A stretch of DNA of 8,548 bases, from assembly GCA_014380255.1 (NCBI GenBank), contig JACMKG010000329.1:1-8548 (forward strand), read 5' to 3'. Shown piece by piece: positions 1 through 8,548 of the stretch. Position 1 is the first letter of the stretch. Each line of letters begins with the position of its first letter. Source of the DNA: Prolixibacteraceae bacterium. Its GTDB lineage: Bacteria > Bacteroidota > Bacteroidia > Bacteroidales > Prolixibacteraceae. The notes beneath the pieces were generated by a model, which was not told the DNA's origin, made no database searches, and worked only from the letters and a program-made list of their open reading frames with translations. Position numbers and translations under genes: made by a program.

Positions 1-14
1 CCCACGTAAAGAAT

Positions 15-19
15 AGGAG
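15..19 (+). promoter_or_regulatory. Shine-Dalgarno-like ribosome binding site
   Basis: AGGAG lies 9 bases before the ATG at 29 and supports that start codon. It is worth recording because the other genes in this window lack a clear Shine-Dalgarno sequence, as is usual in Bacteroidota. An upstream gene may end just to the left (a TAA at 7-9), but too little is visible to say what it is. Confidence 0.55.
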
Positions 20-28
20 AAAACAGAC

Positions 29-1021
29 ATGCCATTATTTGAAAGTTACGACAGAAGAATCACACAGATAAACAATGTGTTGAATTTTTACGGCATCTCT
101 TCTATCGAAGAAGCCAAAAAGATATGCGATGAAAAAGGCGTCGATGTTTACAAGATTGTAAAAGACATTCAACCCATTGCCTTCGAAAACGCCATGTGGT
201 CATACATCGTGGGCGGTGCTATTGCCATTAAATTAGGCCAGACCAACGCTGCCGAAATTGCTGCAACTTTGGGAATCGGCTTACAGGCTTTCTGTATCCC
301 CGGATCAGTGGCTGATGACCGCAAAGTAGGTATCGGTCACGGTAACCTGGCTGCCATGTTACTGAAAGAAGAAACCAAATGTTTCGCTTTCCTTGCAGGT
401 CACGAATCGTTTGCTGCTGCTGAAGGTGCGATCGGTATTGCCAAATCGGCCAACCGTGTCCGCAAAGAACCATTACGTGTTATCCTGAACGGATTGGGTA
501 AAGATGCTGCCAAGATCATCGCCCGTATCAACGGATTTACCTATGTACAGACAGACTTCGACTATGCTACCAGCGAGTTGAAAGAAGTGGCACGTATTGC
601 TTACTCAACAGGCGATAAAGCCAAAGTAAATTGCTACGGAGCCAACGATGTACGTGAAGGTGTTGCCATTCTTCACAGCGAAGGCGTGGATGTTTCCATT
701 ACCGGAAACTCAACCAACCCAACACGTTTCCAGCACCCTGTTGCAGGTACCTACAAAAAAGAATGTCTGGAGCAAGGCAAGAAATACTTCTCGGTGGCTT
801 CAGGTGGCGGTACAGGCCGTACCCTTCACCCCGACAACATGGCCGCAGGTCCTGCCTCTTACGGTATGACTGACACCATGGGACGTATGCACTCTGATGC
901 CCAGTTTGCCGGTTCTTCATCCGTTCCAGCTCACGTAGAGATGATGGGATTGATCGGAATGGGTAACAACCCAATGGTAGGCGCTTCAGTGGCTGTAGCA
1001 GTAGCTATTTCACAGGCATAA
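29..1021 (+). CDS. GGGtGRT family protein (function unknown)
   Basis: This 330-residue protein carries the heptad GGGTGRT at residues 259-265, the signature that gives the GGGtGRT family its name. Other stretches that look conserved are glycine-rich or contain His: GIGHGN at 101-106, LAGHESFAAAEGAIGIAK at 122-139, and a Gly/Ala/Met-rich C-terminus from about 266 onward. No signal peptide or clear transmembrane helix is seen, so it is probably cytosolic. The length matches what I remember of family members (about 330 residues), so it looks complete. The start is supported by AGGAG at 15-19. A strong terminator follows 18 bases after the stop, so the gene ends its transcript. From memory, homologues in Bacteroidota and Clostridia often sit beside a NifU-like iron-sulfur scaffold gene; that neighbour would lie left of this window and is not visible. 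No biochemical role is established to my knowledge. The family call is confident, the function is not known. Confidence 0.92.
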   Translation: MPLFESYDRRITQINNVLNFYGISSIEEAKKICDEKGVDVYKIVKDIQPIAFENAMWSYIVGGAIAIKLGQTNAAEIAATLGIGLQAFCIPGSVADDRKVGIGHGNLAAMLLKEETKCFAFLAGHESFAAAEGAIGIAKSANRVRKEPLRVILNGLGKDAAKIIARINGFTYVQTDFDYATSELKEVARIAYSTGDKAKVNCYGANDVREGVAILHSEGVDVSITGNSTNPTRFQHPVAGTYKKECLEQGKKYFSVASGGGTGRTLHPDNMAAGPASYGMTDTMGRMHSDAQFAGSSSVPAHVEMMGLIGMGNNPMVGASVAVAVAISQA

Positions 1022-1038
1022 TCCAATATACTAATATT

Positions 1039-1076
1039 AAAAAGCCCCGCTTCGAAAGAAGACGGGGCTTTTTTTT
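1039..1076 (+). terminator. Rho-independent terminator after the GGGtGRT gene
   Basis: The stem GCCCCG (1044-1049) pairs with CGGGGC (1063-1068) and is extended outward by A-T pairs. Above a single bulged A (1062), CTTC (1050-1053) pairs with GAAG (1058-1061) and closes a GAAA loop of the GNRA type. Eight T residues (1069-1076) follow directly. This is a strong intrinsic terminator for the plus-strand gene. No plus-strand gene is left open here, so read-through into the next small gene is unlikely. Confidence 0.93.
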
Positions 1077-1188
1077 ATGGGATGAATTGAAGGATTGAAG
1101 GACCGAATATCGACACTTGATAAATTCACAATGCCTCAGCTTATACCTTTTCCTCAAACCAATCTTTAAATTTGTTCCAGATCGATAG

Positions 1189-1216
1189 TTTCTATTCATT
1201 CAAAAATGTAAATTTG
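1189..1216 (+). promoter_or_regulatory. Candidate Bacteroidota-type promoter for the small gene at 1234
   Basis: TAAATTTG (1209-1216) matches the -7 consensus TAnnTTTG exactly and ends 17 bases before the ATG at 1234. The only nearby -33 candidate is a weak TTTC (1189-1192) 16 bases upstream, so the -33 part is doubtful. A transcript from here would have a leader of roughly ten bases. Confidence 0.4.
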
Positions 1217-1233
1217 CTTGAAATAAATTCAAT

Positions 1234-1410
1234 ATGAAGAAAACAATTGAAATAACTAAAGGTAAAAATCTGGTTCATCCAACCAACAAGCCGCTTTCTC
1301 AGGCAGAATTGGAAAATGAACTAAAAAAAGCTGAAGAGGGCACTTTTATATCCGTTCAGGATGGAATGAAGGATTTCGAACAATGGCTGGAATCAAGAGA
1401 AAACAAGTAG
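1234..1410 (+). CDS. Small acidic protein, antitoxin-like (58 residues)
   Basis: The ATG at 1234 opens a 58-codon frame ending in TAG at 1408-1410. The product begins MKKTIEITKG and contains a charged helix-like stretch (residues 22-36, rich in Glu, Lys and Leu), then GTFISVQDGMKDFEQWLESR. The pattern of an E/K-rich helix, then G-x-F-I-S, then a short amphipathic helix ending in W-L resembles the toxin-binding tail of small RelB/YefM-type antitoxins. This is a resemblance only; I cannot name a family. A perfect TAAATTTG -7 element lies just upstream, which favours a real gene. A toxin gene would normally overlap or follow directly, but only an unconvincing frame (from 1383) is present, so this would be an orphan or the remains of a toxin-antitoxin pair. 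A small regulator or plain hypothetical protein is equally possible. Confidence 0.6.
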   Translation: MKKTIEITKGKNLVHPTNKPLSQAELENELKKAEEGTFISVQDGMKDFEQWLESRENK

Positions 1411-1575
1411 TTTTATATACCGGGGTGCTACCATTTGATCGGTATCTGATCTCTATCTGTACTAAAATGCGGTTTTTAGTAGGGATAACGTTCTTAAAAA
1501 GATCTGATAATAACAACCCGGTAGTAGGCCTTTATCAACCTAATAAAACCATGGTTTTTGTTGAAAGGATGATTT

Positions 1576-2151
1576 CTATTTCTCCTTTTGCTTATTCACC
1601 CTTTCAATGATTGAAGTTCCATCAATCTGTACGTCGCTCAATACAGCCTCTCCATTTTTGATACTCACCAAGGCATAGGTTACCCTATTGGTATCTGCCT
1701 GTAATTGCCGATAGAGGATTTCAGCCTCCAATGCTTTTGATTCTTCCATATAAAACCGGTCAAAAGGATAATCTATCACCACCTTTCTGGGTTTTTCATC
1801 CATAACATACCGCACTTTAGCCCTGATCACATTAGGTTGGCCTGAGGGCATTTCCTTTGAAACAAAATCAATTTTAGCAAATCCATTGCTGTCTGTTGTC
1901 AGGGTTAAATAAATGGGTTCTCCATCGATCCATTCCTCCCCGTCATTTACCTCTACTGTATTTTCGCGAAAAGTCAGGGCGATGTATTTCCCCCTAAACG
2001 GGTCGTTTGGATCAACAGGGGCTGTTCTGAACTTATAAAGGGTTCCAGTATCCAATATTTCTTCTCTATCCCAAATCATTTTTACTGGAATAGCCAGTTG
2101 CACCAATGCAACCAGCAAAAAAGCAATCAAAAGGATTCTTTTGCTAGTCAT
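1576..2151 (-). CDS. GDYXXLXY domain protein, membrane-anchored
   Basis: This 191-residue protein has one N-terminal hydrophobic helix (residues 5-23) followed by a soluble, probably extracytoplasmic domain. The motif DPFRGKYIALTF (residues 50-61) is the family signature, here with Lys in place of the Asp of G-D-Y and Phe in place of the last Tyr. A second recognisable family segment is DRFYMEESKALEAE (131-144). I chose the ATG at 2151 (MTSKRILL) rather than the longer frame from 2208, because the extra 19 residues would precede the signal anchor and lie wholly inside the upstream gene. The start overlaps the 3' end of the DUF2157 gene by 8 bases (ATGACTAG), which implies translational coupling. 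Members are commonly found next to or fused with DUF2157 proteins. The molecular function is unknown. The sequence looks more AT-rich than that of the DUF4914 and sua5 genes. Confidence 0.88.
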   Translation of the reverse strand: MTSKRILLIAFLLVALVQLAIPVKMIWDREEILDTGTLYKFRTAPVDPNDPFRGKYIALTFRENTVEVNDGEEWIDGEPIYLTLTTDSNGFAKIDFVSKEMPSGQPNVIRAKVRYVMDEKPRKVVIDYPFDRFYMEESKALEAEILYRQLQADTNRVTYALVSIKNGEAVLSDVQIDGTSIIERVNKQKEK

Positions 2152-3427
2152 TTTTGTTTCTCTTTTTAAGCATGATATAATTGGTGGCAAAGAACCCGGC
2201 ACCGACAATCAGAAACATTATACCCCGGAGTACAAAGCTCAAGTCAGTATCTAAAAACCTACAGATTACCAATGCGATAATAATCAGTAAGCCAAGATTC
2301 AGGACTCCCAGGTGATCCATCCTGGAACCTTCTCTCATGGTTAGCAATCCAATTAGAAATACACACAGATTAATCAATACCACTGAAAATGGGAAATAAA
2401 GTCCAAGAAGGTATGTGGCTATAAACAGCATAAAGACATAGGCGATAGGCTTGATTTGGTCAGCGGGCTTATTTTTATACTGAAAATAAAACAGTGCAGC
2501 AGCCATAAAAGAAAGTACAATAGCGGCTATAAATTCAGGAGATGTAAAGACCTGATCGATGGGAAAATCTCTGTGAATCAGTTTTTCCCAAAAGTCATCA
2601 AAACTCAAACTCAACAGCAGGATAAGCGTACCGAGTGTGCCTATTATTTTATAGCCATTGTTGATGGGTTTCTGTGGTGAGAAAAAAGCTGAATCCCCTA
2701 TCATGTAAAACAAACCAAGCAAACTGAAATACGCAATGAACATTAATTCGCCATTCGTTTTTGCCACCGTTCCCAAGGTAATAATGATCGATAGCGGGAT
2801 GATCCAATGGTGGAAAACCATAAAGTTACTCTGTGGCTTTTCCTTATACAGTTGGTAATAGTGAGGCAAAGCCCCTGCCAGCAAAAGCCAGTAGAGATAG
2901 GAATCTTCCCGGGGATACGAAAAATAGCTGGTAACACAGGCATAACTAGTTATTCCGATGATAAAAAGTAAGGATGCAAGGGAAGATTTCATGATATAAA
3001 TCAGCGGGAAACAAAGAATGGTCCAGGTTAAAAGAAAGGAACTTAGGTTTCCCGGTATGTTGTAAATCTGACTAATCAACGCGATGACTGCTCCCACTGC
3101 AAAAATCAAAAAGGTGGTGGTACTTTCTCTCCAGGCAATGCTGTTCTGTTTCTTCATCAACACATATCCGCACAAAAACTGCCCCGCTACAAGCGGCATA
3201 AATGCCATGCCTGTTTTGGTCGCCCTTGAAAGTTCATCCCAATTGTGTGCAATAATCAGTATAAATCCCAACCCTGTTAAGAGGGCTCCGAATATCGCAA
3301 AGACAATAAAAAGCCTGCTGGTTGACGAATTGCTTTTACTTTGGTAATAGAAGTTTATCCTGTCCGCTGTTTCCTGGTTGATAACAGCAGCTTCAACAAG
3401 TTCATCAAGGTCCTTTATTCTACTCAT
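2144..3427 (-). CDS. DUF2157 domain polytopic membrane protein
   Basis: With the start at 3427 (MSRIKDLDEL) the protein is 427 residues long. A short cytosolic N-terminal region (1-37, with a helix ending INFYYQSK) is followed by about ten to twelve hydrophobic segments, starting near 38-60 and ending near 400-419. The DUF2157 hallmark is the first membrane hairpin with the loop AHNWDELSRATK (60-71); a second typical stretch is the ISQIYNIPGNLSSFLLTW region (118-135) followed by another hydrophobic pair. An upstream ATG at 3538 would add 37 residues of non-family sequence; I prefer 3427 because the family N-terminus fits there, although a promoter-like site lies directly before 3538. Its stop codon overlaps the start of the GDYXXLXY gene, so the two are very likely co-expressed and may work together in the inner membrane. 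No catalytic motif is apparent and the role is unknown. Confidence 0.87.
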   Translation of the reverse strand: MSRIKDLDELVEAAVINQETADRINFYYQSKSNSSTSRLFIVFAIFGALLTGLGFILIIAHNWDELSRATKTGMAFMPLVAGQFLCGYVLMKKQNSIAWRESTTTFLIFAVGAVIALISQIYNIPGNLSSFLLTWTILCFPLIYIMKSSLASLLFIIGITSYACVTSYFSYPREDSYLYWLLLAGALPHYYQLYKEKPQSNFMVFHHWIIPLSIIITLGTVAKTNGELMFIAYFSLLGLFYMIGDSAFFSPQKPINNGYKIIGTLGTLILLLSLSFDDFWEKLIHRDFPIDQVFTSPEFIAAIVLSFMAAALFYFQYKNKPADQIKPIAYVFMLFIATYLLGLYFPFSVVLINLCVFLIGLLTMREGSRMDHLGVLNLGLLIIIALVICRFLDTDLSFVLRGIMFLIVGAGFFATNYIMLKKRNKND

Positions 3428-3549
3428 CGGTCGGCATTTATAGTTTGGTGAACTTTTGTGTATGCATTTAAAACCGATTATTTTTAGTGAAGGTATGATT
3501 TCACCAACCTCCTCAAAGGCCCAATCGTTCAATGACACATTCTTGTCTT

Positions 3550-3580
3550 CAAAGCTATCTTTTTATGACAATTAATCCAA
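3550..3580 (-). promoter_or_regulatory. Candidate promoter for the DUF2157-GDYXXLXY operon
   Basis: Read on the minus strand, TTG (3580-3578), a 20-base spacer and TAGCTTTG (3557-3550) match the Bacteroidota TTTG / TAnnTTTG pattern with the -7 element exact. Transcription would begin near 3543, giving a leader of about 115 bases to the preferred start at 3427, or almost none to the alternative ATG at 3538. The 294 bases between 3428 and 3721 hold this site and nothing else I can identify: no other gene and no convincing terminator after the XRE gene. Confidence 0.5.
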
Positions 3581-3721
3581 TTAAACTACAAAATAGTTGG
3601 ATGTTCTTACGCTGGAATGTTCCTTTTAATGAAGGAAAAGAAGCTAACGATTTCACAATCCTAAACCTTCATTGGAGAGGATGAATACTCTTTTTGTGAA
3701 GGAGGATACTTAGGGAACCTC

Positions 3722-4273
3722 TTATGCTCCTGAAGGGGTCGTTATCCACAACAGTTCTCCTTTTGGAGCCTCCACAAGGTTCACACGATGGGAAAGAATG
3801 GTATCGAAGTAAAAACTGTCGCCTTTTTTGAGCCGGTAATTCACCTCATCCAGATGAAATTCAAAGGTTCCTTCGTTTACAAAGCAAAAGGTCTGTGCAC
3901 GGTAGGCAGAAAAGAAGCCTTGGATGTCGGATTTTTCCACGAACCGGATGAGATACGTCTCCATCCTTTTCAGCGGATCATGGTTCGAGAGCAGGTACAA
4001 TTCACTTCCGCTTTCATTCTTTTCAATAAACTTGATTTCTTCCCGGGTGATCAGCGGGTTCTGGGAAAGGTTTTCATTCTCGCCAATCAGCTCGCCTACC
4101 GTGGTGTGTAGACATTCAGCAATATTCTTTAAAGTAGCAATCGAGGGTGAAGCCTTTGCATTTTCAATCTGCGACAGTGCGCTGGCACTGATGCCTGCCC
4201 GTCGGGCCAGATCATTGAGCTGAATCTTCTGAACCTCGCGTTTCTTCTTAATCCTTTCTCCCAGTCGCTTCAT
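3722..4273 (-). CDS. XRE-family transcriptional regulator with C-terminal cupin domain
   Basis: This 183-residue protein has an N-terminal helix-turn-helix of the Cro/XRE type (about residues 5-62). The recognition part is SASALSQIENAKASPSIATL (29-48), and the next helix, NIAECLHTTVGELI, is typical of this family. After a linker comes a small cupin barrel (about 100-180) with the GTFEFHLDEVNYRLKKGDSFYF segment (135-156) and a following SHRV turn (161-164). Proteins of this architecture bind DNA as dimers and sense a small ligand through the cupin; the ligand cannot be read from the sequence. The gene stands alone, 158 bases after sua5 and 294 bases before DUF2157. The upstream region carries tandem ACACATAG copies and inverted repeats that could be its own operator. 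Targets could include itself or neighbouring genes, but that is inference. The gene looks intact. Confidence 0.92.
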   Translation of the reverse strand: MKRLGERIKKKREVQKIQLNDLARRAGISASALSQIENAKASPSIATLKNIAECLHTTVGELIGENENLSQNPLITREEIKFIEKNESGSELYLLSNHDPLKRMETYLIRFVEKSDIQGFFSAYRAQTFCFVNEGTFEFHLDEVNYRLKKGDSFYFDTILSHRVNLVEAPKGELLWITTPSGA

Positions 4274-4278
4274 TATTC

Positions 4279-4303
4279 ATGTGTTTATAATTTTGAAACA
4301 CAT
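4279..4303. repeat. Perfect 8-base inverted repeat upstream of the XRE gene
   Basis: ATGTGTTT (4279-4286) and AAACACAT (4296-4303) are exact reverse complements with a 9-base spacer. The site begins 5 bases upstream of the regulator's start codon, a position suited to an autoregulatory operator or to a hairpin covering the ribosome entry region of its mRNA. Confidence 0.6.
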
Positions 4304-4357
4304 AGACACATAGGACACATAGTTAAAAATTATTCTATGAGCTCTATGTACCAATGT
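4298..4357. repeat. Triple ACACATAG direct repeat inside an imperfect dyad
   Basis: ACACATAG occurs three times in the same direction at 4298-4305, 4306-4313 and 4315-4322. The right part (4308-4322) also pairs imperfectly with 4335-4349 (12 of 15 positions) across a 12-base AT-rich loop, and 4300-4303 pairs further out with 4354-4357. The array could be a multi-site operator for the adjacent XRE-cupin regulator, or a copy of a dispersed intergenic repeat. The sequence alone does not decide. Confidence 0.6.
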
Positions 4358-4431
4358 ATTTACTTTCATTTAGTGATAGTTGTTAATAATCATTTTACTG
4401 TGTGTCAAAATACAATAGGCAGGAGCGTTTC

Positions 4432-5415
4432 CTATTCTTCCTTTTGGGTGGTGTCTAAATAACTATAGGCAGCCTTTCGTGCACGGTCCATAATGGCCTT
4501 GCCAATGCCTGTTTCAGCAATGGATTCAAAATATATCTGGCTAATTTCAGCGTCATCTTCCAGCATATGCAACACGGCAAACAGGTTGACGGCCATCTCG
4601 AACAGATCTCCATCAGTTGATAAAGGCAAGATTTTTACTGCGGAAGGGTTTACGCCAACCTTGGCAGAACCTACGATAAGGCCTGAGCCTGCAGGCAGTT
4701 CAACAGCAGAAGCATCTTCCACGATATACATCGGTTTGCGCGGAGCATAATGACTTTTAAGCATGCCGGGCGAATGAAGCCCGTTGGTGTCATTTTCCTC
4801 TTTGGCGGTAATGATCTTCACATGAGCTGCCAGCGCTTCCTCGGTAACAGCGCCGTAACGCAGGATACGCACCCCTCCCGGGGAAACAGAAACGACCGTT
4901 GATTCAATACCAAAGTCGGTGGAGCCTCCATCGAGCAGGTATTCAGGCTGCATATTCTGTTTAACCACATGGGAAGCCTGCGTAGGACTTAGGCATCCGA
5001 ACTTGTTGGCACTGGGAGCAGCTACCGGGGTACCGGCCTTTTCAATCAGCTCCAGGGCTATGGGATGTGAAGGCATACGCACGGCCACGGTAGGCAACCC
5101 GGAGGTTATAAGATCAGGTACCCGCGTTTGCTTGGCATGTACGATGGTTAAAGGACCGGGCCAGAAAGCTTTTGCCAGAGTATAAACCTGCGGATCGATG
5201 GGAGCCTGAAACAATTGTTCCAGTTGATCGAGCGAGGAGATATGTACAATGAGGGGATCAAAATTAGGTCTCTCCTTCAGTGCAAATACCCGGGCAACGG
5301 CCAATGCATCAAACGCATTGGCCCCTAACCCGTAAACTGTTTCAGTGGGAAATACGACCAGTTTCCCTTCACGCAAAAGCTCTGCAGCTTTGTCAATATC
5401 AGTTCCAATCAGCAT
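4432..5415 (-). CDS. sua5: L-threonylcarbamoyladenylate synthase, Sua5 type
   Basis: The enzyme joins L-threonine, bicarbonate and ATP to give threonylcarbamoyl-AMP and pyrophosphate, the first step of making t6A at position 37 of tRNAs that read ANN codons. At 327 residues it is the long two-domain form. The YrdC-like catalytic domain (about 5-195) shows PTETVYGLGAN (23-33), the KER substrate-binding motif (47-49), FWPGPLT (84-90), VRMPSHP (112-118), PSAN (134-137) and GIESTVV (169-175). The linker SPGMLKSHYAP (215-225), which covers the active site in Sua5 structures, leads into the C-terminal Sua5 domain (about 226-320). All key residues appear present. The product is cytosolic. The gene begins 21 bases after the DUF4914 stop codon on the same strand, so the two are probably co-transcribed. 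The same protein is called YwlC or TsaC2 in some annotations. Confidence 0.96.
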   Translation of the reverse strand: MLIGTDIDKAAELLREGKLVVFPTETVYGLGANAFDALAVARVFALKERPNFDPLIVHISSLDQLEQLFQAPIDPQVYTLAKAFWPGPLTIVHAKQTRVPDLITSGLPTVAVRMPSHPIALELIEKAGTPVAAPSANKFGCLSPTQASHVVKQNMQPEYLLDGGSTDFGIESTVVSVSPGGVRILRYGAVTEEALAAHVKIITAKEENDTNGLHSPGMLKSHYAPRKPMYIVEDASAVELPAGSGLIVGSAKVGVNPSAVKILPLSTDGDLFEMAVNLFAVLHMLEDDAEISQIYFESIAETGIGKAIMDRARKAAYSYLDTTQKEE

Positions 5416-5436
5416 GCCTTGTTTTTTTGTGCAAGT

Positions 5437-7332
5437 TTAGGAATATTTTGTTTCAATTAAAGCAGCATACTGCTCAATGGTCGCATCATTCAAACAAGCA
5501 TCAATAATTTGCTTGCCCAGAGGTGAAATTCCTTCCTTATCAAACTTGCGGACTTCGTTCTTGAAGAACTCGGTCAGCATGCGGTAGCCCTCATCGTATC
5601 CTTCCTCTCCCACTTCATTCTGACGGTATACTTTCAGGAAGCGTGAAGGAATCTTGGCGCCTTCGATGGTCAGGTAATTCATTTCATAGCCAAGCAATGT
5701 TCCGCGGGCAGGCTGATACTGATCGGGCCGCAGGGAAGCATTACCGCGGCGGGTAAGGTATTCACGCATCAGCAGCTGAGGTTTGAAACCTACTTTCCAT
5801 ACGCCTACATATTGATTGGGCGTTAAGACGTAACGCACTTTATTGGTAGATACAATCTGATCAAGCAACATATTGGCATGCTGGATCATCTTGCCGGTGG
5901 CAAAGGGCCAGTATGAGCCCACCCCTTCCGATTCCATCCCGCCGGTACTCACGATGCTCGGGTTGGCATGTCCGCGAGGAGATACCAATCGCCACAACCA
6001 GGCCAGCGCAGGCGGCAGAATGTGGAACAAGCCTAAGATTCCATACGATGGATCTTCTTTTGAACAAGGAGGAGTACGAACTCCAAAGCTGCGCACATCC
6101 ACCGACACAGGGCGGTCGAGCACTCCCGGTACAATTTCGCGGGGAAGGATCACACGCGGATTAGGGCATTTCTTTCCTGGTGAATCCTGGATATGATCCC
6201 ATACCAAAGCTGTTGAATTCGGGTTGGATTCAATGTTGAGGAACAGCAACGGCTTGGAAGGGTTCAGGGTAATCTTTTCAAGGAACGGGTCGTCGCCATA
6301 CTGGTTGATGGAATCAACCCTGATAAACCATGCATTCTCGGCATCCAGTACACGTAGCCGGCCGTTTTTCTTCTGAATGGAAGGATGGCATAGAGCCATG
6401 TCATCGGTTACCGGGTTAAACGAGCAAAGCAGCGGGATGCTTATAAGGCGTCGTTCACCTGTGATGGTATTCTCGCCGATTAATATCTGCCCGTTGGGTT
6501 CGCGCACCACGTGCTGCAGCATCTCACTCTTTCCCCCACCGCTGGCCCCTTCATGCATGAAGGTAGTGGTGTTATCGTAAGGGCTTACCACCTGAACGGT
6601 GCTACAATGGGCTGTAATCCAGTTTTCCTTTTCACCCTGTGACAGAAGAACCCCGTAAAGGCCCTTTTTAGCGCTTGGGCCGGGATATAAGTTGTAAGAG
6701 AACAATTCATGCACCTCATCCAAACGATTGTGCACAACGATCTGTTTGCCCTCAAAATGGGTATGACGGAATGGTGGGGCTACGTAAATAACCGACTGCA
6801 CTTTGAAGTCTTCGGTAAGCTCATCCACGGCAATGATCTGCTGAAGCATGGAAAGGCCCATGGCAAAAAAGGCCGCATTGGCAGGAACCACTGCAATACC
6901 CCCTGAACCGATCCCCTGACGACCGGCAAAGAAGAAAAATACACCCAGGTCCTGTTGCTTCAGCCACTCGAAGGTCTCGGTGCGTAAGGTATCAAATTTA
7001 TAATGGAAACGTTCCGAAAAACGTTGCTTATCGGTTGGTTTATCATCAGCAATCAACATGGTATCCGGGTCACGGCGGCGCATATAGGCATCGGTATAGT
7101 TGGCCGAAATACCATTCTTCACGCGGTGTACAATCGCTTCGGTGTACATGCCCTTGCCTTCAACTTCATATTGCACTTCGAATTCACTGTTCTGAATTCC
7201 GCCAGTTGAGGCCACGGCCAACTCTTCAGAAGTATTAAATACAGTTAGACTTTTACAGTTTTCAAGGAGTTCGACCAGTTCGGATGATAATGAAATCCCT
7301 TTTTGCTGACAAATGCTTAATAAATTTTCCAT
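5437..7332 (-). CDS. DUF4914 family protein, PEPCK-like NTP-binding enzyme
   Basis: This 631-residue protein matches what I know as the DUF4914 family (about 630 residues, Bacteroidota and Clostridia). Seen directly: a P-loop GASGGGKS at 262-269, RRRDP at 85-89, KKG at 222-224, HCS at 242-244, LIGEN at 284-288, NPRV at 391-394, and SFGVRTPP at 415-422. In the same order ATP-dependent PEP carboxykinase (E. coli PckA, recalled) has GRSP (R65), KKG (K212, K213), HCS (H232), GLSGTGKT (K254), LIGDD (D268, D269), NTRV (R333) and AFGVLPP. The lysine-to-histidine spacing is 19 residues in both. I infer a divergent PEPCK-fold enzyme that binds a nucleotide and perhaps a dicarboxylate. The usual acidic pair after the P-loop is Glu-Asn, so the reaction may differ. 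No membrane segment or signal peptide is evident. The gene leads a probable two-gene operon with sua5. Confidence 0.85.
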   Translation of the reverse strand: MENLLSICQQKGISLSSELVELLENCKSLTVFNTSEELAVASTGGIQNSEFEVQYEVEGKGMYTEAIVHRVKNGISANYTDAYMRRRDPDTMLIADDKPTDKQRFSERFHYKFDTLRTETFEWLKQQDLGVFFFFAGRQGIGSGGIAVVPANAAFFAMGLSMLQQIIAVDELTEDFKVQSVIYVAPPFRHTHFEGKQIVVHNRLDEVHELFSYNLYPGPSAKKGLYGVLLSQGEKENWITAHCSTVQVVSPYDNTTTFMHEGASGGGKSEMLQHVVREPNGQILIGENTITGERRLISIPLLCSFNPVTDDMALCHPSIQKKNGRLRVLDAENAWFIRVDSINQYGDDPFLEKITLNPSKPLLFLNIESNPNSTALVWDHIQDSPGKKCPNPRVILPREIVPGVLDRPVSVDVRSFGVRTPPCSKEDPSYGILGLFHILPPALAWLWRLVSPRGHANPSIVSTGGMESEGVGSYWPFATGKMIQHANMLLDQIVSTNKVRYVLTPNQYVGVWKVGFKPQLLMREYLTRRGNASLRPDQYQPARGTLLGYEMNYLTIEGAKIPSRFLKVYRQNEVGEEGYDEGYRMLTEFFKNEVRKFDKEGISPLGKQIIDACLNDATIEQYAALIETKYS

Positions 7333-7422
7333 TTATATTTCTGTTAAAATTTTCCTGTTTAAATCATTCACCTATAAGACAAATCCCACGATGTTTTTGT
7401 TTGTTGGAGAATTAATTCATTG

Positions 7423-7430
7423 CAAATATA
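7423..7430 (-). promoter_or_regulatory. Candidate -7 promoter element for the DUF4914-sua5 operon
   Basis: Read on the minus strand, TATATTTG (7430-7423) matches TAnnTTTG exactly. A transcript starting near 7416 would have a leader of roughly 85 bases before the ATG at 7332. No good TTTG -33 element lies at the right distance; the nearest TTG is at 7458-7456, a 25-base spacer, which is long. Confidence 0.35.
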
Positions 7431-7492
7431 ATTAAGCATTACTTCACTAATTAAACAATACTTAATTTTATACATTTGATAACACTAATATT

Positions 7493-7522
7493 ACATTGGA
7501 ATAGACGACTGGAATCCAATGT
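7493..7522. repeat. 8-base perfect inverted repeat
   Basis: ACATTGGA (7493-7500) and TCCAATGT (7515-7522) are exact reverse complements with a 14-base spacer. The site lies about 60 bases upstream of the candidate -7 element of the DUF4914 operon. It could bind a dimeric regulator; no T-run follows in either direction, so it is not a terminator. Confidence 0.5.
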
Positions 7523-7653
7523 GAATTCATCATTAACAGGTGGTATGAAAAAAGAAAATAACGTACTGCTCATTTACATTTAAATAATTAATTACCCCTC
7601 TGCCCTCCCTGCCATGAAGCTACCGTGTAATAACAACCTTTCCTGATCCCATG

Positions 7654-7750
7654 GATCACAAATAAACACCAATAAACCACCAATAGTAAAAGATGTTATT
7701 TGGTCTAAATCATTGGTGTTTATTCATTTTATTTGAGTTTATCTGTGATC
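7654..7750. repeat. Large imperfect inverted repeat pair
   Basis: The left arm (7654-7685) and right arm (7711-7750) point towards each other. The outer ends GATCACAAATAAAC (7654-7667) and GTTTATCTGTGATC (7737-7750) pair at 13 of 14 positions. In an alternative register AATAAACACCAAT (7661-7673) pairs perfectly with ATTGGTGTTTATT (7712-7724) over 13 bases. Each arm itself repeats the unit TTTATT(G/C). This looks like two facing copies of a short intergenic repeat and could fold as a hairpin in RNA or DNA. It resembles, from memory, the dispersed TTCGTGTTTATTCGTGG-type repeats of some Bacteroidota genomes. Confidence 0.7.
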
Positions 7751-7796
7751 TTTGCTTTAGTTTTTACCTGATATTCCTGAGGTTATTAAAGATTTG

Positions 7797-7808
7797 GTTA
7801 CCGGTAAC
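7797..7808. promoter_or_regulatory. Palindrome GTTACCGGTAAC, possible operator
   Basis: This is a perfect 12-base palindrome with a central CG, the shape favoured by LacI/GalR-family regulators. It lies 86 bases upstream of the candidate -33 element for the PAP2 gene. No LacI-family gene is in the window, and one or two 12-base palindromes are expected by chance in a sequence this long. Confidence 0.25.
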
Positions 7809-7893
7809 TGTGAGACAGTGAAAAAAAGCTCCGTTATTTTCAAAAAGACTGAATGGAAAAAACTACTTAAATCTATACTACGTGTCATTTATG

Positions 7894-7925
7894 TTTGTCG
7901 GTTCATCAGATTTATATAATCTTTG
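7894..7925 (+). promoter_or_regulatory. Candidate Bacteroidota-type promoter for the PAP2 gene
   Basis: TTTG (7894-7897) and AATCTTTG (7918-7925), a 7-of-8 match to TAnnTTTG, are 20 bases apart, which is the usual spacing. Transcription would start near 7931, giving a leader of about 30 bases before the ATG at 7962. Confidence 0.55.
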
Positions 7926-7961
7926 TCCAATCAATTTCGGGATGAATGAATTATCAATAAT

Positions 7962-8548
7962 ATGGAATACCTACAATCACTGGATACCGATCTTTTCTTT
8001 TTGATCAACGGATGGAACAACAGCTTTTTCGATCCCATCATGTACTGGCTCAGCCATAAGCTGATATGGATACCCATGTACCTGCTCATTGCCTACCTGA
8101 TTGTAAGGCGCTACCGGATGAAGGGTGTGCTGATGCTTGCCTTCATTGGCCTGGTAATTACCCTGTGCGACCAGACCGCCTCGGGCCTGCTAAAAGACCT
8201 GGTTCAGCGCCTGCGCCCCTCGCGTGAGCCTGCCTTTGAAGGGATGATACACCTCTCTGAAGCAGGTCCCGGTGGTAAGTATGGATTTGTGTCCTCGCAT
8301 GCAGCCAATGTTTTCGGACTGGCCACCTTCCTTCATTTTGTACTTGACTCCAAGTTCAGGCTGATGAAGCTTTGGCTTTTCATCTGGGCCGTGCTGGTAG
8401 CCTACAGCCGCGTTTACGCCGGAGTGCATTACCCGGGCGATGTCATTGTAGGATCCCTGATCGGGGCTGCCTACGGATGGCTGCTGGCTAAAGCTTATTT
8501 CAAGGCAGATGCCTGGCTGGAGGAAAGAAAACAAGGCAAAAGGCAAAA
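7962..8548 (+). CDS. PAP2-family membrane phosphatase (3' end outside the window)
   Basis: The frame is open from the ATG at 7962 to the right edge, giving 195 residues with no stop. It carries the complete PAP2 lipid-phosphatase signature: KDLVQRLRP (78-86, matching K-x6-RP), SSH (111-113, the histidine-bearing second motif, with Ser where many members have Pro-Ser-Gly) and SRVYAGVHYPGD (149-160, matching SR-x5-H-x3-D). About five hydrophobic segments are visible (roughly 34-48, 54-75, 114-128, 134-150, 159-178), so it sits in the inner membrane with the active site facing the periplasm. Such enzymes remove phosphate from undecaprenyl pyrophosphate or other lipid pyrophosphates, or from lipid A; the substrate cannot be told here. 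The highly charged tail (from about 181) suggests that only the C-terminal end is missing. It is transcribed away from the DUF4914 operon. Confidence 0.9.
   Translation, partial: MEYLQSLDTDLFFLINGWNNSFFDPIMYWLSHKLIWIPMYLLIAYLIVRRYRMKGVLMLAFIGLVITLCDQTASGLLKDLVQRLRPSREPAFEGMIHLSEAGPGGKYGFVSSHAANVFGLATFLHFVLDSKFRLMKLWLFIWAVLVAYSRVYAGVHYPGDVIVGSLIGAAYGWLLAKAYFKADAWLEERKQGKRQ

Follow-up and report, generated by a model that had tools for sequence, protein, structure and literature searches.

DUF4914 proteins as anciently diverged, full-length relatives of the phosphoenolpyruvate carboxykinases

The current analysis concerns the DUF4914 family, one member of which is encoded within an 8,548-nucleotide stretch of a Prolixibacteraceae bacterium genome (contig JACMKG010000329.1, positions 1 to 8,548; hereafter the window). 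The gene lies at 5437..7332 and is read on the minus strand from 7332 to 5437, a strand that the preliminary description of this DNA had not given, and its 631 codons specify a protein annotated only as a family of unknown function. We consider DUF4914 to be almost certainly homologous to phosphoenolpyruvate (PEP) carboxykinase (PEPCK) over the full chain. This agrees with the preliminary description, which had proposed a full-length, divergent PEPCK homologue, as the profiles match outside the phosphate-binding loop (P-loop) and the fold predicted for almost the entire chain is that of PEPCK. DUF4914 would represent a full-length class within the PEP carboxykinase fold, one that diverged long ago and kept its catalytic core intact. 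The family assignment itself rests upon a match to PF16260 at 980.2 bits (cut-off 25.7), spanning residues 15-626 and the complete profile (1-612 of 612). At E-values up to 10, the only other Pfam match was a chance one to FcoT, and a search of NCBIfam returned no match. Curated models thus place DUF4914 outside both PF01293 (ATP-PEPCK) and PF00821 (GTP-PEPCK), whereas its anatomy suggests the same way of working, as far as anatomy shows.

The homology is evident from comparisons of family profiles. A profile of 55 DUF4914 sequences (the window protein and others sharing 54-82% identity with it) aligned with one of 19 ATP-PEPCKs over 459 columns, with a probability of 82 and an E-value of 1e-5. 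Against a set of 42 ATP-PEPCKs, the profile score was 51.1 over residues 113-613, compared to 18.1 for a reversed profile and at most 25.0 for 20 column-shuffled profiles. Masking the P-loop stretch (residues 255-292) still left a score of 35.7 on the same alignment path, and residues 1-254 alone scored 30.4. With 57 DUF4914 sequences of greater diversity, the scores were 49.9 against ATP-PEPCK and 37.5 with residues 255-275 masked. For reference, the accepted pair of ATP-PEPCK and GTP-PEPCK scores 43.5 on the same measure, so by profile score DUF4914 is about as close to ATP-PEPCK as ATP-PEPCK is to GTP-PEPCK. A faint reciprocal signal was encountered with the curated DUF4914 model among 296 Bacteroidota genomes, where six of seven sub-cut-off matches fell within PckA genes (18-21 bits, located before and at the P-loop). 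These six carry GLSGTGKT and are 48-49% identical to Escherichia coli PckA.

Several results weigh against homology over the full chain, or at least limit what sequence comparison can say of it. With residues 210-292 masked, the score against the 42 ATP-PEPCKs dropped to 21.65, and residues 293-631 alone reached 25.1. Since both values are at decoy level, sequence alone fails to identify the C-terminal half. The comparison of the 57 sequences with GTP-PEPCK scored 29.6, barely above its decoys (12 shuffles, maximum 26.4), and 21.0 once the P-loop was masked. The PF01293 and PF00821 models did not reach the window protein in Pfam at E-values up to 10, nor did either the window protein or a DUF4914 profile retrieve any PEPCK from the PDB sequences at E up to 10, although this profile search misses ATP-PEPCK and PPi-PEPCK (the pyrophosphate-dependent enzyme) alike. 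Likewise, the DUF4914 model gave no weak match to PckA in a sample of 247 Bacteroidales genomes, which is why we describe the reciprocal signal as faint. One could argue from such results that the P-loop alone is common to DUF4914 and PEPCK and that the other motif matches are coincidental: no PEPCK hidden Markov model detects DUF4914 directly, and masking residues 210-292 abolishes the profile signal. Nevertheless, the scores obtained with the P-loop masked and the fold described below already disfavour this explanation, which can scarcely be credited. As a separate observation, two loci of the genome collection (L094 and L138) produced weak PEPCK_ATP matches of 24 bits at profile positions 186-246 in open reading frames (ORFs) of 308 and 290 amino acids. 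The L094 frame contains GFSGVGKS and may encode a protein of the HPr-kinase type. The P-loop region by itself can therefore yield about 24 bits.

The predicted structure extends the match to the regions that sequence profiles fail to resolve. The AlphaFold model of the window protein has a predicted local distance difference test score (pLDDT) of 87.3 and a predicted template modelling score (pTM) of 0.87, with values below 50 at residues 264-272 (within and just after the P-loop), 458-464, and 466-478. Upon superposition, the PEPCK fold is found over nearly the whole chain. Among the 50 matches listed, PPi-PEPCK covers the most model residues (585 and 573 of 631), while 515-527 residues are aligned with GTP-PEPCK and 480-505 with ATP-PEPCK; PPi-PEPCK is also first among the matches listed for an N-terminal fragment of residues 1-314. 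The predicted model is therefore about equally near ATP-PEPCK and PPi-PEPCK, which qualifies the ATP-PEPCK homologue originally proposed: sequence profiles do favour the ATP-dependent family, but the fold does not single it out. DUF4914 is 13-17% identical in superposition to ATP-PEPCK (PckA, PF01293; E. coli and Thermus thermophilus 2pc9), about 90 residues longer, and distinguished by a beta-hairpin insertion at about 280-300, between the P-loop and the strand bearing the Asp pair. In comparison, the chains of PPi-PEPCK (Propionibacterium freudenreichii 8e1u; 6k31) are far longer at 1124 (8e1u_D) and 1108 (6k31_B) residues; they were compared by fold, which they share with the DUF4914 model, and gave no sequence match in the PDB profile search. 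A review states that PPi-PEPCK enzymes are not evolutionarily related to the ATP- and GTP-dependent enzymes (PMC8100219). Contrary to that statement, the fold common to our predicted model, ATP-PEPCK, and PPi-PEPCK suggests an evolutionary relation.

The residues upon which PEPCK chemistry depends are in large part conserved within DUF4914. Our alignment of 304 sequences combines 86 ORFs from DUF4914 loci, which were picked by a P-loop pattern, with 218 proteins, including the window protein, that were gathered independently of any motif; P-loop invariance is thus built in by selection for the former and free of it for the latter. The sequences were drawn from best-hit lists with redundancy retained, and 128 of 631 columns are invariant. 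All six residues picked in the preliminary description from a single sequence (R87, K222, K223, H242, K268, and R393) are among them, which exceeds chance ((128/631)^6, or about 7e-5). The motif strings it had reported were all confirmed by direct translation at their positions: RDP with R87, KKG at 222-224, HCS at 242-244, GASGGGKS at 262-269, LIGEN at 284-288, NPRV at 391-394, SFGVRTPP at 415-422, LTIEGAKIP at 554-562, and FFKNEVRKF at 589-597. The spacing from the second Lys to the His is likewise 19 residues in both proteins (223 to 242 versus 213 to 232 in E. coli). Moreover, K222, K223, H242, the P-loop, N391-R393, and F416-G417 find the same partners in separate ATP-PEPCK and GTP-PEPCK profile alignments. 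Accordingly, K222-K223-G224 (6661..6669, minus strand, as are all features of this gene) corresponds to E. coli K212-K213-G214, H242 of H242-C243-S244 (6601..6609) to H232, and R393 of NPRV (6151..6162) to R333, with K222-K223-G224, H242, N391, P392, and R393 each present in 304/304 sequences. The P-loop GASGGGKS (a kinase-1a motif at 6526..6549, invariant in 304/304) offers K268/S269 as counterparts of the ATP-PEPCK Lys254/Thr255, with Ser in place of Thr, but is placed with low confidence in the model. Further downstream, profile alignments set DAENAWFIR (330-338; 6319..6345; E332 and R338 304/304) parallel to the GTP-PEPCK segment NPEAGFFG, with E332 paired to Glu304 of the GTP-PEPCK at locus L111, and SFGVRTPP (6067..6090; R419 304/304) parallel to AFGVLPP and to FGGRR of GTP-PEPCK.

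The metal site was the point upon which the preliminary description had to be corrected. In E. coli PckA, the metal is held by K213, H232, and D269, and LIGEN (6469..6483) had been proposed as the counterpart of LIGDD. This pairing was rejected, as residue 287 is variable (Glu in just 158/304 sequences) and superposition instead places the invariant D310-D311 (6400..6405; 304/304) at E. coli 268-269. To choose between the two, we predicted the fold of residues 1-314 in isolation (pLDDT 82.4, pTM 0.75, with low confidence for the last four residues at pLDDT 44 and for 262-273 at below 50). Among the matches listed, the last aligned pair joins model residue 314 to E. coli 272 in all 18 E. coli rows, 13 of which name E. 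coli in their titles, whereas the remaining five (1oen, 1os1, 1aq2, 1k3c, and 1ayl) we take to be E. coli. In seven rat-titled rows among those listed, model residue 314 pairs with rat 314. Ungapped over the last few residues, D310-D311 fall on E. coli 268-269, and Asp269 is the residue named as mutated in entries 6com and 6v2m. Because superposition supplies the first and last aligned residues only, at a root mean square deviation of 4.2-4.6 for E. coli, this equivalence is read from end points; the invariance of both residues supports it. So does the GTP-PEPCK profile alignment, which sets D310-D311 on the Asp pair and continues collinearly beyond it (DDMA..NGRLRVLDAENAWF versus DDIAW..EGVLRAINPEAGFF). 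The ATP-PEPCK profile alignment, however, speaks for LIGEN rather than D310-D311 and taken alone would have misled. With D310-D311 taken as the Asp pair, LIGEN belongs to a hairpin peculiar to this family (model strands at 283-288 and 294-297), which is inserted ahead of the strand that bears the pair. The metal-ligand counterparts are consequently complete, with K223 and H242 identified by profile alignment and D311 by superposition, all in 304/304 sequences.

The substrate-holding residues of PEPCK are similarly accounted for, albeit with one ambiguity. Oxaloacetate and PEP are held in E. coli PckA by Y207 and R333, while R65 belongs to the CO2/oxaloacetate site. The counterparts of the first two, Y216 (6685..6687) and R393, are both present in 304/304 sequences, although the Tyr is one residue off in the GTP-type alignment. 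Including these, nine residues have PEPCK counterparts: Y216, K222, K223, H242, K268, S269, D310, D311, and R393. The proposed pairing of R65 with R87, recovered in the long profile comparison and not in the focused one, is weakly supported. The R65 counterpart is probably one of R85-R86-R87 (7072..7080), which precede DP and are invariant in 304/304.

The nucleotide site is a different matter, and here the description of the enzyme as nucleotide-dependent fails to find backing. The adenine pocket of ATP-PEPCK includes R449 and T455, which the long alignment sets opposite V514 and M522 and the focused alignment does not cover. Neither the long nor the focused profile alignments matched any purine-pocket counterpart, a point that counts against the carboxykinase reading, and the focused GTP-PEPCK comparison produced no alignment in the guanine-pocket region. 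A GTP-type purine pocket at 506-528, suggested by eye from GVWKVGF versus GKWLWPGYG, gained no support from the focused profile alignment. The P-loop itself differs from both families: DUF4914 has GGG instead of the GTG of ATP-PEPCK, and its GASGGGKS lacks the reactive Cys carried by the PSACGKT of GTP-PEPCK (PF00821; rat, Mycobacterium tuberculosis), a motif we also saw at loci L110-L113. One alternative is that DUF4914 is a compact PPi-dependent PEPCK of the PEP carboxytransphosphorylase type, devoid of a nucleotide site. The lack of a purine-pocket match, the greater coverage of the model by PPi-PEPCK among the 50 matches listed, and the first place of PPi-PEPCK for the N-terminal fragment all point in this direction. 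As this alternative concerns the donor, it overlaps with our preferred explanation; we regard it as unlikely. As to the donor, sequence favours an ATP type and structural coverage a PPi type.

By analogy with the established roles of PEPCK residues, we infer the reaction, the identity of the donor (ATP, GTP, or PPi), the binding of a metal, and the movement of a lid as follows. DUF4914 would most likely convert oxaloacetate to PEP and CO2 and back. K223, H242, and D311 would coordinate a divalent metal, and R393, Y216, and one Arg of the R85-R87 cluster would bind oxaloacetate or PEP, while the phosphoryl donor would occupy the GASGGGKS P-loop together with K268 and D310/Mg2+. A mobile lid at about 458-478 (5899..5961) could then close over the enolate intermediate. 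This low-confidence segment lies at the inferred position of the PEPCK lid according to pLDDT and profile alignment, together with general PEPCK anatomy. Since neither the metal site nor the counterparts of Y207 and R333 vary, the likeliest function, and in our view a probable one, is the interconversion of oxaloacetate and PEP. On the opposite side, we found no activity data or assay for DUF4914, and a search of the PMC literature returned no mention of DUF4914, PF16260, or IPR032583 (presumably its InterPro number). A catalytically dead or regulatory PEPCK-fold protein is highly unlikely. A regulatory role would be conceivable where the genome also encodes PckA, but all 304 sequences retain the P-loop Lys and Ser, both active-site Lys, the His, both Asp, and R393 (the P-loop by selection in 86).

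The main rival to the oxaloacetate/PEP reading is a different but related substrate. Under this alternative, DUF4914 retains the metal and phosphate machinery of the PEPCK fold, but takes another keto or dicarboxylic acid as the substrate for phosphorylation or (de)carboxylation, or serves as the kinase of a related acid, thereby complementing PckA. The 128 invariant columns are many more than the PEPCK counterparts among them, and the equivalence of R65 is unproven. Furthermore, ordinary PckA coexists with DUF4914 in most hosts tested: 13/16 genomes in a first set and 23/26 in another, i.e. 36/42 tested (42 of 80 loci). In our even Bacteroidales sample of 247 genomes, 26 encode DUF4914 over cut-off (one sub-cut-off match was dropped), and 16 of these carriers encode PckA over cut-off. 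An additional PEPCK is consequently not obviously needed, which weakens the case for one. Despite this, Y216 and R393 are invariant and the metal site is complete, and co-occurrence has a precedent, since most organisms that possess PPi-PEPCK have a canonical PEPCK as well (PMC8100219). We judge a different substrate to be unlikely.

The oxaloacetate/PEP reading can also be examined through the distribution of the known enzymes. PckA over cut-off is found in 190/221 Bacteroidales non-carriers, and its absence is more frequent in DUF4914 carriers (10/26 versus 31/221, p 0.004 without correction for phylogeny). GTP-PEPCK occurs in 5/26 carriers versus 13/221 others (p 0.03), and in 4/16 DUF4914 genomes of the first set. 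Genomes with neither enzyme are not significantly enriched among carriers (5/26 versus 19/221, p 0.15), which speaks against the reading, and a simple replacement of PckA by DUF4914 is thus unsupported in these 247 genomes. Some of these absences may be genome gaps, and 19 PckA-negative genomes were inferred from their absence in the positive list. From the PckA and GTP-PEPCK counts in carriers, DUF4914 is usually a second enzyme and sometimes stands beside neither. Five of six carriers lacking a PEPCK match encode PEP carboxylase (PF00311) and so keep a PEP/oxaloacetate link. Separately, in genome G375, which has no match to PF01293 or PF00821, a DUF4914 gene (locus L201, 5874-7766) is located ~1.3 kb from a divergent PEP carboxylase gene (9080-11671), with a 224-amino acid ORF between the two. 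A general DUF4914-PEP carboxylase linkage was not borne out, as 93 loci were scanned and only L144, from the same genome G375, matched.

When examining the distribution of DUF4914, it is evident that the family is large, with at least 8,000 members at 90% identity clustering. Carriers among the matches listed include Prolixibacteraceae, Paludibacter, Ignavibacteriaceae, Balneolaceae, Flagellimonas, Cyclobacteriaceae, and Kiritimatiellae. Our genome collection contained 114 DUF4914 loci, of which 80 were kept, and a search of plasmids found no match. One locus (L011), from a metagenome-assembled genome of Candidatus Edwardsbacteria, encodes a DUF4914 protein 70% identical to that of the window despite belonging to another phylum; none was present in 9 further genomes of that phylum, and the gene reflects either lateral transfer or mis-binning. 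The Thermotoga maritima control genome also contains a DUF4914 match over cut-off. That genome has a match to a pyruvate carboxylase/oxaloacetate decarboxylase domain and none to PEPCK_ATP, PEPCK_GTP, PEP carboxylase, or archaeal-type PEP carboxylase, so that DUF4914 would be the only PEPCK seen in T. maritima. A published survey has no pepck entry for T. maritima, T. neapolitana, or T. petrophila (PMC3561251 Table 3).

The genomic neighbourhood of DUF4914 is compatible with an enzyme under metabolic control. In the window, a gene for a Sua5/YrdC threonylcarbamoyl-AMP synthase lies directly downstream of DUF4914 (4432..5415, minus) and is succeeded by one for an XRE-cupin transcription regulator (3722..4273, minus; Pfam HTH_3 and Cupin_2), both in the same orientation as DUF4914; the former was also assigned by Pfam. 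Among 81 loci (the 80 above plus the window; ORFs called mechanically, with members of the same sequence cluster sought within seven ORFs), 38 have an XRE-cupin gene of the window gene's cluster near DUF4914, which in 27 cases lies immediately upstream in the same orientation. Sua5 genes of the window gene's cluster occur in 25/81, and ORFs that look PurE-like on inspection by eye in 15/81. In Pseudomonas, a study that tested seven XRE-cupin regulators found six to control the adjacent gene, and most of the neighbours are enzymes or transporters (PMC7901475). By analogy, the XRE-cupin linkage fits a metabolite-regulated enzyme. Elsewhere in the window, the ORFs of a DUF2157 membrane protein and a GDYXXLXY protein overlap (1576-3538, minus), and 29-1021 (plus) encodes a member of the conserved GGGtGRT family (PF14057, 642 bits), whose name derives from a motif alone.

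PEPCK is situated at the junction of glycolysis, gluconeogenesis, and CO2 fixation, and genome-based models set the direction of carbon flow by its presence. If DUF4914 is indeed a carboxykinase, a family annotated as unknown, with its at least 8,000 members, would add such an enzyme to many bacteria. Being structurally about equally near ATP- and PPi-PEPCK and distributed among Bacteroidota, Balneolaceae, Kiritimatiellae, and Thermotoga, DUF4914 may constitute a fourth, compact class of about 630 residues beside the ATP-, GTP-, and PPi-dependent enzymes, a possibility that we raise tentatively. It would then be the unrecognised PEPCK of organisms on record without one, like T. maritima, and a second PEPCK in Bacteroidales, in the latter case with its own donor or regulation, while Thermotoga, for which the survey table (PMC3561251 Table 3) shows no pepck, would gain a carboxykinase.
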